Shown here: piece after piece, positions 53,617-58,641 of the stretch | How positions within the stretch are numbered: position 1 is the stretch's first letter | How the letters are laid out: every line of letters begins with the position of its first letter | Assembly (NCBI RefSeq): GCF_000217815.1 | Contig: NC_015707.1 | Span: 868,001 to 932,000, forward strand | Origin: Pseudothermotoga thermarum DSM 5069 | GTDB taxonomy: Bacteria > Thermotogota > Thermotogae > Thermotogales > DSM-5069 | DNA length: 64,000 nt | Direction: 5' to 3' | The notes under the pieces: generated by a model | Told to the model about the DNA's origin: nothing | Databases searched by the model: none | The model's input: the letters and a program-made list of their open reading frames with translations, nothing else | Program-made: the position numbers and the translations under genes

Positions 53617-53636
53617 ATTTGGTAAATTTACCAAAT
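53617..53636. promoter_or_regulatory. Perfect 20-bp palindrome, candidate operator of sulfur operon
   Basis: ATTTGGTAAATTTACCAAAT is a perfect inverted repeat. It covers the -35-like TTGGTA (53619-53624), and CTATAG (53643-53648) follows at an 18-bp spacing as a possible -10. A regulator bound here would block the promoter about 80 bp before tusA. The ArsR-TusA protein encoded downstream is the natural candidate, but that is inference. Confidence 0.6.
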
Positions 53637-53728
53637 CGTAACCTATAGCAACAAAAATCGCAAAATAACAGAGTTAACATCATATTGAAAGAGATTGAGC
53701 ATTTTTTCACAAATGGAGGTGAGGGTTT

Positions 53729-53968
53729 ATGGCAAAGTATCAAGTTACAAAAACTTTGGATGTAAGAGGCGAAGTTTGCCCAGTTCCCGATGTTGAAACA
53801 AAAAGAGCTTTGAAAGACATGAAGCCCGGTGAGATTTTGGAAGTATGGATTGACTATCCAATGTCAAAAGAAAGAATACCTGAGACAGTGAAAAAACTTG
53901 GGCATGAGGTACTTGAAATCGAAGAAGTTGGTCCAAGTGAATGGAAGATCTACATCAAAGTTAAGTGA
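53729..53968 (+). CDS. tusA: TusA/SirA-family sulfur carrier
   Basis: The 79-residue protein shows the TusA motif RGEVCPVPDVETKRAL with the active cysteine in CPxP, then the helix-strand pattern LKDMKPGEILEVWIDYPMSKERIPETVKKLGHE. It carries sulfur as a cysteine persulfide. GGAGGTGAGGG precedes the ATG. It is the first gene of the sulfur island, and its sequence is closely related to the C-terminal half of the regulator at 56077-56631. Confidence 0.92.
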   Translation: MAKYQVTKTLDVRGEVCPVPDVETKRALKDMKPGEILEVWIDYPMSKERIPETVKKLGHEVLEIEEVGPSEWKIYIKVK

Positions 53969-53984: not shown

Positions 53985-54986
53985 ATGGTCTGGACGGGAT
54001 TTGTGATCGGAATCATCTTTGGGATAATCCTTCAAAGAGGTAGAATCTGCTTCAATTCGGCTTTCAGAGATGTATTGCTTTTCAAGGATAATTATTTGAT
54101 GAGACTTGCTGCTTTGACTTTGGGACTTCAATCGATAACCTTCTTGATATTCGCTCAGACTGGTTTGATAAAGCTTAATCCAATGCCTTTGAACTGGATA
54201 GCCAACATCGTAGGTGGTTACATCTTTGGATTGGGAATGGTACTTGGAGGAGGCTGTGCATCGGGTGTAACATATCGCGTCGGTGAAGGTATGACCACCG
54301 CTTGGCTTGCGGCCTTGATGTTTGGTTTAACTGCACGCGCTACCGAAGCTGGTTTGTTCTCTGGCTGGACAAAGTGGCTTAGAAATTACAACATAACCGT
54401 TCAAAATACATCCCCGCTTTATGCTCCAAAGACTGGTCCTACCATTTCGAGCATGCTTGGTATTAACCCATGGATAGTGTCGATAATCTTTCTTGCGTTG
54501 ATGCTTTGGTATGCTTTTGGCACAAAGAACAAATCTGAAAGGCCTTCCAAACTCAACTGGATAGCAGCAGCAGTTTTGATAGCAATACTTGCACCAATCG
54601 CTTGGTGGGCAAGCGCAAAAGCTGGTAGAAACTATGGTCTTGGTATCACCGGAGGATGGACAAACATCATTTCCGTCTACACGGCGAATGCAAAGTTAAA
54701 CTGGATCGGAGCAGAGGTGCTTGGAATAATCATCGGTGCAGCCATATCTGCAATCATCGGCAAAGAGTTCAAACTGAGGATGCCGAAAGATCCCAAGACT
54801 TACGTTCAGGTTCTTGTCGGAGGATTCTTGATGGGCTTTGGTGCAGCGACAGCCGGTGGATGCAATATAGGACATTTCTTGACTGGTGTTCCACTTTTGG
54901 CAATTTCTTCAATAGTCTCGTCGATCTTCTTCATCCTTGGCAACTGGACGATGGCATGGCTTTTGTACGGTAGAGAAAAACAGTGA
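53985..54986 (+). CDS. YeeE/YedE-family (TsuA-like) sulfur-compound transporter
   Basis: The 333-residue membrane protein has about nine TM helices and the conserved cysteines of the TsuA family in RGRICFNSAFRD, GGGCASGVTYR and AGGCNIGHF. TsuA imports thiosulfate through a relay of such cysteines. GGAGGTG precedes the ATG. It sits between tusA and dsrE, consistent with handing imported sulfane sulfur to the carrier proteins. The exact substrate is not shown. Confidence 0.88.
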   Translation: MVWTGFVIGIIFGIILQRGRICFNSAFRDVLLFKDNYLMRLAALTLGLQSITFLIFAQTGLIKLNPMPLNWIANIVGGYIFGLGMVLGGGCASGVTYRVGEGMTTAWLAALMFGLTARATEAGLFSGWTKWLRNYNITVQNTSPLYAPKTGPTISSMLGINPWIVSIIFLALMLWYAFGTKNKSERPSKLNWIAAAVLIAILAPIAWWASAKAGRNYGLGITGGWTNIISVYTANAKLNWIGAEVLGIIIGAAISAIIGKEFKLRMPKDPKTYVQVLVGGFLMGFGAATAGGCNIGHFLTGVPLLAISSIVSSIFFILGNWTMAWLLYGREKQ

Positions 54987-55004: not shown

Positions 55005-55361
55005 ATGAAGATTGCAATACAGGTCATGGTACAGCCTTACACGTACCAAGATCTTGATACAGCGATAAAAATCGCCGAAGCAGCTATCGCAAAAGGTCAT
55101 GAGGTAACTTTGTTCTTGTTTGCTGACTCAGTCATTTGTGTCAACAAAAACATTAAACCATTGAGGATCGACAGGAACATTCCGCAAAAACTGAAGCAAT
55201 TAATTGAAACTGGCAAATTTGAGGTTCACATCTGTGGCATTTGTATGGATTACAGGGGAATCACCACGGACATGATAATAGAAGGATCAAAACCAAGCGG
55301 TCTTCCAGAGCTTGCAAACCTTTTGGCTAACTGTGATCGTTTCGTGAATTTGATGGCTTGA
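55005..55361 (+). CDS. DsrE-family (TusD-like) protein
   Basis: The 118-residue protein has the DsrE fold pattern (MKIAIQVMVQPYTYQDLDTA, GHEVTLFLFADSVICVNKN) and cysteines in HICGICMDYRGI at the usual active-site position. DsrE/TusD binds sulfur relayed from TusA. AGGAGAGGAAACC precedes the ATG. Confidence 0.88.
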   Translation: MKIAIQVMVQPYTYQDLDTAIKIAEAAIAKGHEVTLFLFADSVICVNKNIKPLRIDRNIPQKLKQLIETGKFEVHICGICMDYRGITTDMIIEGSKPSGLPELANLLANCDRFVNLMA

Positions 55362-55370
55362 GGTGAGATC

Positions 55371-55724
55371 ATGAAAAAACTGCTGTTTGTCGCTTACCAA
55401 TCCCCAGTAGGTAGCATATGGGTCAACGAGGCTTTTAGAACGGCTTTTGGGATGTACGGTGAGGATTTAGAACCCAGTGTACTTTTGATCGAAGAAGCTT
55501 CAGCTGCGCTTTCCAAAAACACAAAACCAGAACTACTTGGTCTTCTTCCTTTGTCGATTTGCCACAGATACATCAAGAACTATGGTACAAAAGTTTACGC
55601 GGTGAAGCAGCACCTTGAAAAGTTCAAAGTAAAAGAACTCGACGAAAATTTCCAAGCAGAGTTGATCGATGAATCTGAACTTTCAGAATTTCTACACAGC
55701 TTTGATTATGTAATTTTCATGTGA
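55371..55724 (+). CDS. DsrF-family (TusC-like) protein
   Basis: The 117-residue protein starts KKLLFVAYQSPVGSIWVNEAFRTAFGMYGE and has the GEDLEPSVLLIEEA alternation of DsrF/TusC. The only cysteine is in LSICHRYIKNYG (about residue 64). In the DsrEFH hexamer the F subunit is structural. GAGGTGAGATC precedes the ATG. Confidence 0.85.
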   Translation: MKKLLFVAYQSPVGSIWVNEAFRTAFGMYGEDLEPSVLLIEEASAALSKNTKPELLGLLPLSICHRYIKNYGTKVYAVKQHLEKFKVKELDENFQAELIDESELSEFLHSFDYVIFM

Positions 55725-55734
55725 GGTGAAAAAT

Positions 55735-55998
55735 ATGGCATTGATACTTGTCAAGTATGGAACAGATCATCCTGCTGAAAGGCTCAAAATAAAGGTAGCA
55801 AAACCAGACGACAAAATCGTTCTTATTCAAAATGGAGTTTACTGGGCACTTGAAAAGATAGAAACACCTGCTAAAGTCTATGCCATAAAGGACGACTTTG
55901 TATCAAGAGGATATTCTGAATCAGACTCAACCGTATCTTTGATAAGTTATAGCGAATTCATAGACTTGTTGGAATCCGAGGAAAAGTTCATTGGTTGA
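55735..55998 (+). CDS. DsrH-family (TusB-like) protein
   Basis: The start is ATG 55735 behind GAGGTG, rather than the GTG within that site. The 87-residue protein has MALILVKYGTD, IVLIQNGVYWAL and the YAIKDDFVSRGY pattern of DsrH/TusB. It contains no cysteine, so the persulfide role assigned to DsrH Cys20 in other bacteria is absent. It completes the DsrEFH set. Confidence 0.85.
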   Translation: MALILVKYGTDHPAERLKIKVAKPDDKIVLIQNGVYWALEKIETPAKVYAIKDDFVSRGYSESDSTVSLISYSEFIDLLESEEKFIG

Positions 55999-56016
55999 AA
56001 AAGCTTGTGATAGAAT
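55987..56016 (+). promoter_or_regulatory. Candidate promoter of the ArsR-TusA gene
   Basis: TTCATT (55987-55992), 18 bp, TAGAAT (56011-56016) with a TG two bases upstream (extended -10, TGATAGAAT). It overlaps the end of dsrH. Transcription would start near 56023. Confidence 0.5.
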
Positions 56017-56034: not shown

Positions 56035-56059
56035 GCCGCGGGTTTGCCCGCAGCTTTTT
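56035..56059 (+). terminator. GC hairpin with T-run between dsrH and the regulator
   Basis: GCGGG (56038-56042), loop TTTG, CCCGC (56047-56051), two outer GC pairs beyond one mismatch, then five T (56055-56059). It could end the tusA-dsrH transcript. It also lies in the leader of the regulator gene, between its promoter and ribosome site, and so may attenuate it. Confidence 0.65.
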
Positions 56060-56076: not shown

Positions 56077-56631
56077 GTGAAACGTTCTATTGACGCTGCC
56101 ACTCTTTTTAAAATACTTTCAAACCAAACAAGGCTTGAGATTTTGATGTTGCTAAGGGATAATTGTCTTACAGTTTTTGAGGTGGCAAGCAAATTGAAAA
56201 TAGACTTTTCCACAGCTTACAGATACCTTAATCAAATGGTCAAGGCCGGCATATTAACCGTTGTGAAATCGCCGGAAGGGGATAGGTATGATTTCTCATC
56301 TGTCCACATTTTTAGGATACTTGAGGAAATAGCCGAATTCGTGCTTGAAAAAGCTGGAAAAAAATCTTCAAATTTCAAGACTTTTCAAGTATTTTCCTCT
56401 CATCAAATTCCCACCGAAAAGTTTTTGGATTTATGTGGTCAACTTTGCCCAGTACCTGAGATAATGACCAAAAGAGAGCTTGAAAAACTTCGCCCTGGTG
56501 AAACACTCGTTGTAGCATGCGACTATCCACTATCGAAAGAAAGAATAATCAGCTTCTCAGTTAGAAACGGATACGAAGTGAGCGTTGATCAAATTGGTCC
56601 TGTAGCGAAAATATACATTCGAAAACCTTAA
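56077..56631 (+). CDS. ArsR-type HTH regulator fused to a TusA sulfur-carrier domain
   Basis: GTG 56077, six bases after GGAGG, is preferred to the upstream TTG. The 184-residue protein has an ArsR winged-helix domain (about 1-85: ILSNQTRLEILMLLRDNCLTVFEVASKL-type pattern in residues 11-40, FSTAYRYLNQMVKAGIL recognition helix) and a linker (about 86-115). The complete TusA domain (about 115-184) has LDLCGQLCPVPEIMTKREL with CPxP intact plus a second cysteine four residues earlier. Its 70 residues resemble the TusA encoded at 53729. It probably senses persulfide loading directly on its own carrier domain and controls the island. The regulated site is unknown. Confidence 0.9.
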   Translation: MKRSIDAATLFKILSNQTRLEILMLLRDNCLTVFEVASKLKIDFSTAYRYLNQMVKAGILTVVKSPEGDRYDFSSVHIFRILEEIAEFVLEKAGKKSSNFKTFQVFSSHQIPTEKFLDLCGQLCPVPEIMTKRELEKLRPGETLVVACDYPLSKERIISFSVRNGYEVSVDQIGPVAKIYIRKP

Positions 56632-56763: not shown

Positions 56764-58641
56764 ATGAAAGGAAAGGAATTTCTGAAAAAACTTACTCTCC
56801 CATCTGAAGTACGAGAAGTGGTTGACTTAGCACCAGAAGTTGTTGTAGCAGATTCAAGGCAAGAATTGCTCGATTTAGCCCTTGGTGGAGGAAAAGATTT
56901 TTTTGAGGTTGGATACGAGGTACCTGGAAAGGGATATGTAGTTGAAGCAACTGTAGTGAAGAGTAAAAACGGGCTAGGGGTGAATTACACCGAACCGTAC
57001 ATGAGGCGTAGGGATCCAGATGCGTTGGTTGTGGGGGATGACAAACCTACGGACAAGCCTACGTTCAAAAAGTTGTTTGGTTTTGACTTTCAAAAGCTTA
57101 GAAATGAAACTTTTGAATGGTTGAAAAACCAACCGTTGCTGTTGTTACCCTTTATGGCTGGTGGGCACCAATATGGTTATCCTGCACTTTTGATAGGTCC
57201 AAAGAATGCAGGCTTTTTTGCCGGCGGATTAGCTGATTTGCAATTTTTCCTTCCCGCTGATGATGTACCAAACGGCTTTGAGCCAAAACTTTTAATGTTC
57301 TTAGCACCCGTTTTCAGACACATTTATTTCAAAGGAAAACAAGTAGTTGTTCATAATCGTTTGGACAGTCATTACGAAATCTTTTCATACAACCTTTATC
57401 CAGGTCCAAGCGCCAAAAAAGGAGTTTACGGTTTTCTGCTTCACATGGGAGAAGTAGAAGGATGGACTACGGCTCACGCTTCTGCTGTGAAGGTTGTTAC
57501 CCCGTACGACACAGAGATAGTGATAATGCACGAAGGAGCCAGCGGCAGTGGTAAAAGCGAAATACTTGAGGAAATCCACAGGCAACCTGATGGAAAAGTG
57601 CTGGTTGCGGAGAACATAAAAACGGGCGAGAAATTTTTCCTGGAGATGAAGGAAACTTGCTCTTTGTACCCGGTGGCCGACGATATGTTTCTCTGTCATC
57701 CAAGGCTTCAGACCAAGAAAAAGTTAGTTGGAATGGACGCTGAAAACGGCTGGTTCATAAGGTTGGACCACATAAAAGGCTATGGAACAGAACCAAATCT
57801 TGAGAGGATAACGATATCACCACCAGAACCTTTGATATTTTTAAACCTTCAAGCAACACCTAAAACTACAATCCTTATTTGGGAACATATCGAAGATGAA
57901 CCTGGTAAACCTTGTCCCAATCCGAGGGTTATCTTGCCAAAGAAGTGCTTTAAAAACGCCATCAAAGAGCCGGTTGAAGTTGATGTTAGAAGTTTTGGTA
58001 TCAGAACACCTCCTTGTACAAAGGAAAAACCAACTTACGGTATAGTTGGATTTGTTCAAATCCTTCCGCCGGCGTTGGCTTGGCTTTGGCGTCTAGTCGC
58101 ACCAAGAGGGCATGCCAACCCAAGCATCGTGGACACCGTGGGAATGCAAAGCGAAGGGGTCGGTTCGTTCTGGCCTTTTGCTTCTGGAAGGAAAGTCATG
58201 CTCGCAAATATTCTTTTGAAACAGATCTTGGAAAGTCCGGAAACCAAGTATATTTTGTTGCCAAATCAATACATAGGCGCTTACAAGGTAGGCTTTATGC
58301 CAGAGTGGATAACGAGAGAATATCTTGCAAGAAGAGGCGGTGTGAAATTCAAGCCCGAGCGACTTGAGCCAGCCAAATGTCCTTTATTAGGTTTTTCGCT
58401 GAAGGAAATGATTGTTGCTGGCGAAAGCATACCAAAAGGTTTGTTGCAGCCTCATTTGCAACCTGAAGTTGGAGAAGAAGCATACATGAAAGGCGCAGAA
58501 ATTTTACAAAACTTCTTCAGCAGAGAGCTTAGACAGTATTTGCAAGACGATCTTCACCCACTTGGTAGGGAAATAATCGAATGTTGCTTGAATCGCGGAA
58601 AACTCGAAGATTATCTTAGTTTGATACCGATGGAACTTTGA
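56764..58641 (+). CDS. DUF4914 protein with PEP-carboxykinase-like P-loop
   Basis: The 625-residue protein has a P-loop GASGSGKSEILEEI (about 259-272), like PEP carboxykinase and HPr kinase, followed by a VADDMFLC motif (about 306-313) where PEPCK has its metal-binding Asp. An extended C-terminal part contains VAPRGHANPSIVDTVGMQSEGVGSFWPFASG-type glycine-rich blocks in residues 442-472. I recognise it as DUF4914, of unknown reaction. No signal peptide or TM helix. It follows the ArsR-TusA gene by 132 bp with its own promoter, so a link to sulfur metabolism is only positional. Confidence 0.8.
   Translation: MKGKEFLKKLTLPSEVREVVDLAPEVVVADSRQELLDLALGGGKDFFEVGYEVPGKGYVVEATVVKSKNGLGVNYTEPYMRRRDPDALVVGDDKPTDKPTFKKLFGFDFQKLRNETFEWLKNQPLLLLPFMAGGHQYGYPALLIGPKNAGFFAGGLADLQFFLPADDVPNGFEPKLLMFLAPVFRHIYFKGKQVVVHNRLDSHYEIFSYNLYPGPSAKKGVYGFLLHMGEVEGWTTAHASAVKVVTPYDTEIVIMHEGASGSGKSEILEEIHRQPDGKVLVAENIKTGEKFFLEMKETCSLYPVADDMFLCHPRLQTKKKLVGMDAENGWFIRLDHIKGYGTEPNLERITISPPEPLIFLNLQATPKTTILIWEHIEDEPGKPCPNPRVILPKKCFKNAIKEPVEVDVRSFGIRTPPCTKEKPTYGIVGFVQILPPALAWLWRLVAPRGHANPSIVDTVGMQSEGVGSFWPFASGRKVMLANILLKQILESPETKYILLPNQYIGAYKVGFMPEWITREYLARRGGVKFKPERLEPAKCPLLGFSLKEMIVAGESIPKGLLQPHLQPEVGEEAYMKGAEILQNFFSRELRQYLQDDLHPLGREIIECCLNRGKLEDYLSLIPMEL

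Follow-up and report, generated by a model that had tools for sequence, protein, structure and literature searches.

The window analyzed here, a stretch of 64,000 nucleotides from Pseudothermotoga thermarum DSM 5069 (contig NC_015707.1), carries on its plus strand a run of sulfur-transfer genes, tusA-tsuA-dsrE-dsrF-dsrH, between positions 53729 and 55998, after which comes the gene of an ArsR-TusA fusion regulator at 56077..56631. The run begins with a stand-alone sulfur carrier of the TusA/TsuB type (53729..53968; Pfam TusA, 88.9 bits), a member of the TM0983 group, followed by the thiosulfate transporter gene tsuA (53985..54986), which is recognized by the NCBIfam model NF052577 with 565 bits against a cut-off of 400. 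The encoded TsuA keeps C22, C91, and C293 together with R28, R98, E101, and E261, which are the three cysteines for transport and the four residues for docking reported for the YeeE of Spirochaeta thermophila (PMC11073785). The three remaining genes are dsrE (TusD-like, 55005..55361), assigned by Pfam DsrE, dsrF (TusC-like, 55371..55724), assigned by a weak TIGR03010/PRK00211 match and by its position, and dsrH (TusB-like, 55735..55998), which scores above the cut-off of TIGR03011.

The gap between dsrH and the fusion gene holds two further features, again on the plus strand. One is a proposed extended -10 box of the fusion gene, TGATAGAAT, at 56008..56016, identified by eye in an upstream alignment, as were some of the spacings and other motifs mentioned below, and similar in many close relatives. 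The other, located by a terminator scan at 56038..56051, is a GC hairpin followed by a T-run, of the form GCCGCGG...CCGCGGC in close relatives, and it is proposed to act either as the operon terminator or as a leader attenuator. On its other side, the fusion gene adjoins that of a DUF4914 protein of 625 aa (56764-58641; 1065 bits), which lies outside the island conserved among the relatives.

The fusion gene starts with a GTG at 56077, has AAAGGAGGG directly ahead of it, and forms a reading frame of 184 aa that closes at 56631. Pfam places HTH_5 (ArsR) at residues 16-61 (34.5 bits, cut-off 22) and TusA at residues 116-183 (65.1 bits, cut-off 28.6), which bears out the earlier reading of the protein as an ArsR winged helix joined to a full TusA domain. 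The winged helix spans residues 1-92, with the recognition helix at 44-56 and alpha5 at 76-92; a linker of about residues 93-113 leads to the TusA domain (114-183), in which the CPVP motif contains Cys124 and a putative docking motif runs from D149 through Y-P-L-S-K-E to R156. An AlphaFold2 model, built with twelve homologues, gives two confident domains (pLDDT 83, pTM 0.78) separated by a linker that is disordered around residues 99-110, and it orders the chain as helices 7-14, 17-27, 33-40, and 44-56, a wing, helix 76-92, and then the TusA fold. The first half has the five helices and beta wing of the ArsR/SmtB type, and the second half has the hallmarks of the TusA superfamily, i.e., the CPxP motif with the catalytic cysteine at the start of helix 1.

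Searches against solved structures with Foldseek returned SmtB, HlyU, and CzrA as the best folds for the HTH part, with HlyU the closest solved relative by sequence, and the TsuA-TsuB complex (8j4c) and TM0983 for the carrier part, whose closest solved relatives by sequence are TM0983 and the TsuB/YeeD of S. thermophila. The HTH does not qualify as a metal sensor of the ArsR family, as it scores 34.6 bits with the NCBIfam model NF033788 (cut-off 55) and has no cysteine in alpha3 or alpha5. With the TsuB/YeeD model NF041048, the fusion reaches 24.4 bits and the stand-alone TusA 41.6 bits, both below the cut-off of 147.5; these two carriers share 49% identity over 70 residues.

For YeeD, it is known that the protein decomposes thiosulfate at C17, that it contacts the transporter through E15, V16, C17, D42, Y43, E48, and R49, and that its binding to YeeE requires C17 and is weaker with thiosulfate (PMC11073785). 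The counterparts of D42, Y43, E48, and R49 are invariant in all 36 aligned fusions, and at the position of E15, 28 fusions have E and eight, among them the protein of the window, have Q. The fused TusA domain therefore bears the docking residues that characterize TsuB/YeeD proteins, and their retention makes it possible that the fusion is loaded straight at the transporter.

Regarding the cysteines, the CPxP motif is complete in 35 of the 36 fusions, the exception being a decayed copy with Tyr in place of Cys, and Cys124 is thus the sole near-universal cysteine of the family. The earlier note had given weight to a second cysteine four residues before CPxP; this residue, Cys120, is lineage-specific, the position being occupied by Arg in 34 of 36 fusions, and it was discarded as a conserved sensor for this reason. 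The HTH does not have the pair of sensor cysteines used by SqrR, BigR, and HlyU, in which alpha2 and alpha5 carry one each: the alpha2 cysteine of HlyU aligns with Met in the protein of the window, and alpha5 has no cysteine. A single cysteine, Cys30, is found in the HTH half of this protein, in line with the few expected there, and with the pair missing, the sensing thiol, if there is one, must reside on the carrier domain, where it had been placed beforehand. A second cysteine of the fusions usually occupies one of two places, either Cys30 in the alpha2-alpha3 loop or the linker, with one or two residues. A linker cysteine occurs in 14 of 15 fusions lacking Cys30 and in 4 of 20 having it (Fisher p 2e-5, kinship ignored), and one or two are nearly always found in the fusions of L046-L052 and L094-L103, from which Cys30 is missing. 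Judging by these alignments, Cys30 or the linker cysteine may be a resolving thiol.

The co-occurrence of the fusion with the operon was surveyed in 103 genomes of the class, among which 41 have a tsuA match; in G086 this is a distant tsuA and nothing more, and the other 40 have the operon, either complete or in clearly recognizable parts. Of these 40 operon-bearing genomes, 36 possess the fusion, nearly always adjacent to the operon, if one includes a copy cut at a contig end (G035) and the decayed copy of G080, and it was not found in the other four, namely G031 (a short contig), G037, G052, and G064. Such a frequency, together with the two confident domains of the model, argues against an accidental joining of the two halves, and across the fusions the HTH and the TusA half are equally conserved. 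Three linked arrangements are encountered, in which the fusion lies upstream of the operon or, when downstream of it, has either the same or the convergent orientation. It is unlinked in G093, and in G018 it sits at another contig end. This linkage, surviving rearrangement, argues for a functional bond and agrees with the earlier assignment of the fusion to the tusA-tsuA-dsrEFH operon. In G087 and G092 the fusion accompanies dsr genes and tsuA was not detected. Decaying operons are also seen: in G087 (L175), tsuA was lost between tusA and dsrE, and in G077 (L177), tsuA is deleted into the fusion. Partial additional copies of the fusion HTH region lie on small contigs of G009 (L179, L180), and G091 (L103, 5200-5525) has, besides the fusion, a second, cysteine-containing ArsR gene divergently upstream of tusA.

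Outside the Thermotogota, no fusion occurs in sixteen genomes that have a homologue of the operon carrier. A single-protein scan of named genomes also gave none. A search of 400 Chloroflexota returned no full-length match, and this search, run without a positive control, counts as weak evidence. The alignment scan for fusions used one short motif of the TusA half and is not an exhaustive census, so that the restriction of the fusion to the Thermotogota is offered as a working statement within the limited sets searched. Its distribution marks the fusion as an old and conserved family of these heat-loving bacteria. An unconstrained TusA tree suggests two independent origins of the fusion (L053/L054 clade), although AU tests of both domains are compatible with a single fusion clade (p 0.57 and 0.61). 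Close relatives of the operon TusA are also encoded on contigs of Lokiarchaeota, Thorarchaeota, and Bathyarchaeota (L136-L173), and in the two examined, L136 and L137, they adjoin homologues of tsuA and dsrE.

Upstream of the operon, a conserved site, TTTACCAAATCGTAAY, here termed element A, precedes a strong -10 box by 31-32 nt, and most loci have no -35 box. In the window, element A reads TTTACCAAATCGTAAC at 53627..53642 on the plus strand and is the candidate binding site of the fusion; the -10 box TAACAT follows 32 nt later at 53675..53680, on the same strand, with no recognizable -35. Element A was found with leave-one-out position weight matrices and compared with 300 shuffles per locus. 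It is present in 30 of 34 fusion operons, almost always with a score that none of the 300 shuffles reached, and the same matrices detect it in none of 16 fusion-less operons, a comparison that, like the co-occurrence of fusion and operon, is partly confounded by shared ancestry, the fusion-less operons of the Thermotogota being four from two lineages. Over the 30 loci, -10-like hexamers stand out sharply at an offset of 31-32, where their mean score is 5.5 as opposed to 3.3 at other offsets (sd 0.5), and few of these loci match a -35 box well. A weaker TTG lies upstream of element A, and AA steps follow downstream at helical spacing.

The earlier note had proposed as operator a palindrome at 53617. 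The exact palindrome is confined to the lineage of the window and was set aside as a whole, since wide conservation is limited to its right arm; extended to TTTACCAAATCGTAAC, this arm is the element at 53627-53642 that tracks the fusion. In all, of what had been read initially, the type of regulator, its membership in the operon, and the placing of any sensing thiol on the carrier domain were upheld, and Cys120 and half of the palindrome were given up.

The genome of the window has no other copy of element A within one mismatch, for which reason a wider regulon was rejected and the regulator looks local. The case of G093 is instructive, as its operon has element A and the surrounding 6 kb or so contain no fusion; elsewhere in the genome, as element A had predicted, a full-length copy subsequently came to light. 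Ahead of it is an A-like site (13.6 bits, 1/300 shuffles as good), the only instance of element A ahead of the fusion gene itself. Moreover, element A is not recognizable for three fusions, and precisely these have lost the motif STxxR[YH]L from the recognition helix, an association of 31 to 3 (Fisher p 2e-4, kinship ignored) that leaves out L105, which has a weak site, and rests on three divergent proteins.

A second conserved site, element B, TTGAGCATTTTTTCACAA, lies downstream of the -10 box at 53695..53712 on the plus strand and resembles a site for the NADH-responsive redox regulator Rex. It matches the Rex operator of T. maritima, ATTTGAGAAATTTATCACAAAA, which has been crystallized (PMC8836258), and it occurs in operons with the fusion as well as in fusion-less ones, the latter both inside and outside the Thermotogota; for these reasons, element B was rejected as the operator of the fusion. 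The Rex consensus alone is not prominent genome-wide (52 sites versus 44 in the control). Two proteins with a Rex-type N-terminal domain are encoded in the genome of the window (G000:C1:170885 and G000:C1:90678). From this candidate site, we infer that thiosulfate uptake is also tied to NADH, which would be sensible for organisms able to dispose of reductant through sulfur compounds.

We infer the DNA binding, the sulfur loading, and the direction of control of the fusion from sequence, and the mechanism we propose is as follows. The dimeric winged helix, of the ArsR/HlyU type, would bind element A, which lies ahead of the operon promoter, and the TsuB-type TusA domain would be the sensor. Its Cys124 would accept sulfur that stems from imported thiosulfate, as sulfane sulfur or as a thiosulfonate, through TusA/DsrE or where TsuA releases it. 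Once loaded, Cys124 would alter DNA binding or the contact with RNA polymerase, and the sulfur-loaded fusion would activate the operon, with Rex as an additional repressor under low NADH. That the fusion regulates the tusA-tsuA-dsrEFH operon is very probable, and there are good grounds to expect that it does so by binding element A; sensing through Cys124 is likely as well. The complete reading, in which a dedicated local regulator switches the operon when its carrier domain is loaded from imported thiosulfate, is probably correct. As for the direction of control, we lean towards an activator. Element A lies at about -60 to -45 of a promoter with a good -10 and no -35, and this distance from the -10 box suggests an activator site, as activators commonly bind in this interval, rather than a repressor operator. 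Against activation stands the fact that ArsR proteins are usually repressors.

The fusion could also be a classical repressor that releases DNA when sulfane sulfur reaches its TusA domain, as SqrR, SoxR, and sHdrR do, with the sensing thiol relocated. Most sulfane-sulfur-responsive ArsR proteins repress (PMC10451225, PMC12423496), and a protein bound between -60 and -45 could obstruct an UP element; however, element A sits upstream of the core promoter and not over it, in loci that mostly lack a -35, and we hold this alternative to be rather unlikely. Somewhat more doubtful is a regulator kept at the membrane by its TusA domain docked on TsuA and set free by passing thiosulfate, in which case the cysteine would matter for docking rather than for its persulfide state. 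All key docking residues are retained in the fusion, the weakening of YeeE-YeeD binding by thiosulfate and its need for C17 (PMC11073785) fit such a release, and SoxT1B offers a YeeE-like signal-transducing partner of an ArsR protein, SoxR (PMC11582611). Yet the docking residues may be retained for catalysis or general TusA chemistry, and the two genomes that have the fusion and no detected tsuA speak against it.

That another factor binds element A and the fusion acts elsewhere is improbable: the element is only partly palindromic, against what is expected for an ArsR dimer, but the exact match in presence and absence, the prediction made for G093, and the co-variation with the recognition helix all connect it to the fusion. 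The same co-variation, and an HTH conserved like the TusA half, make it very improbable that the HTH merely targets the carrier to DNA or is decayed, leaving mainly a second sulfur carrier, even though the active site of the carrier is intact.

Returning to the sulfur-loaded regulator, its features may be viewed against systems already described. Like SqrR, BigR, SoxR, sHdrR, and HlyU, the fusion has an ArsR winged helix with alpha5 and is linked to genes of sulfur import and transfer; unlike them, it lacks the two sensor cysteines, and its only near-universal cysteine is on the added TusA domain. With TsuB/YeeD it shares the CPxP cysteine, the docking motif DYPxSxER, the same operon, and a thiosulfate-handling relative (8j4c), whereas in TsuB/YeeD the carrier is free or fused to the transporter and here it is joined to a DNA-binding domain. 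The fold and the CPxP cysteine are also those of Escherichia coli TusA, with DYPLSKER in the fusion where E. coli has DDPATT (1dcj alignment). A parallel in gene content, and the related system studied best, is SoxT1B-SoxR of Hyphomicrobium denitrificans, where a YeeE-family transporter, a TusA gene, and an ArsR regulator belong to one sulfur locus; TusA and the regulator are separate proteins there and their link is open, and according to its authors it is too early to say if sulfur is passed by TusA to the ArsR repressors SoxR and sHdrR (PMC11582611). Here, both are one chain.

Both ArsR proteins that respond to sulfane sulfur and carriers of the TusA type are familiar, and to the extent of our search, no description exists of the two united in a single regulator of a thiosulfate operon: the open-access literature, to which the search was confined, contained no ArsR-TusA fusion, in agreement with the earlier impression that none had been reported. 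The presence of both parts in one chain across the phylum, beside the same kind of transporter, makes the question of TusA loading directly testable on a small, thermostable, single protein, and it provides a case of a regulator that has a sulfur-carrier domain instead of the usual cysteine-pair sensor. Only tentatively, TsuA could be both transporter and receptor, with the TusA domain docking at its cytoplasmic exit, being charged covalently by thiosulfate, and carrying the sulfur to the promoter; if so, the signal itself would be an atom of a nutrient, handed on through a membrane channel. More generally, the fusion suggests a gene switch that may itself take up the incoming sulfur directly.
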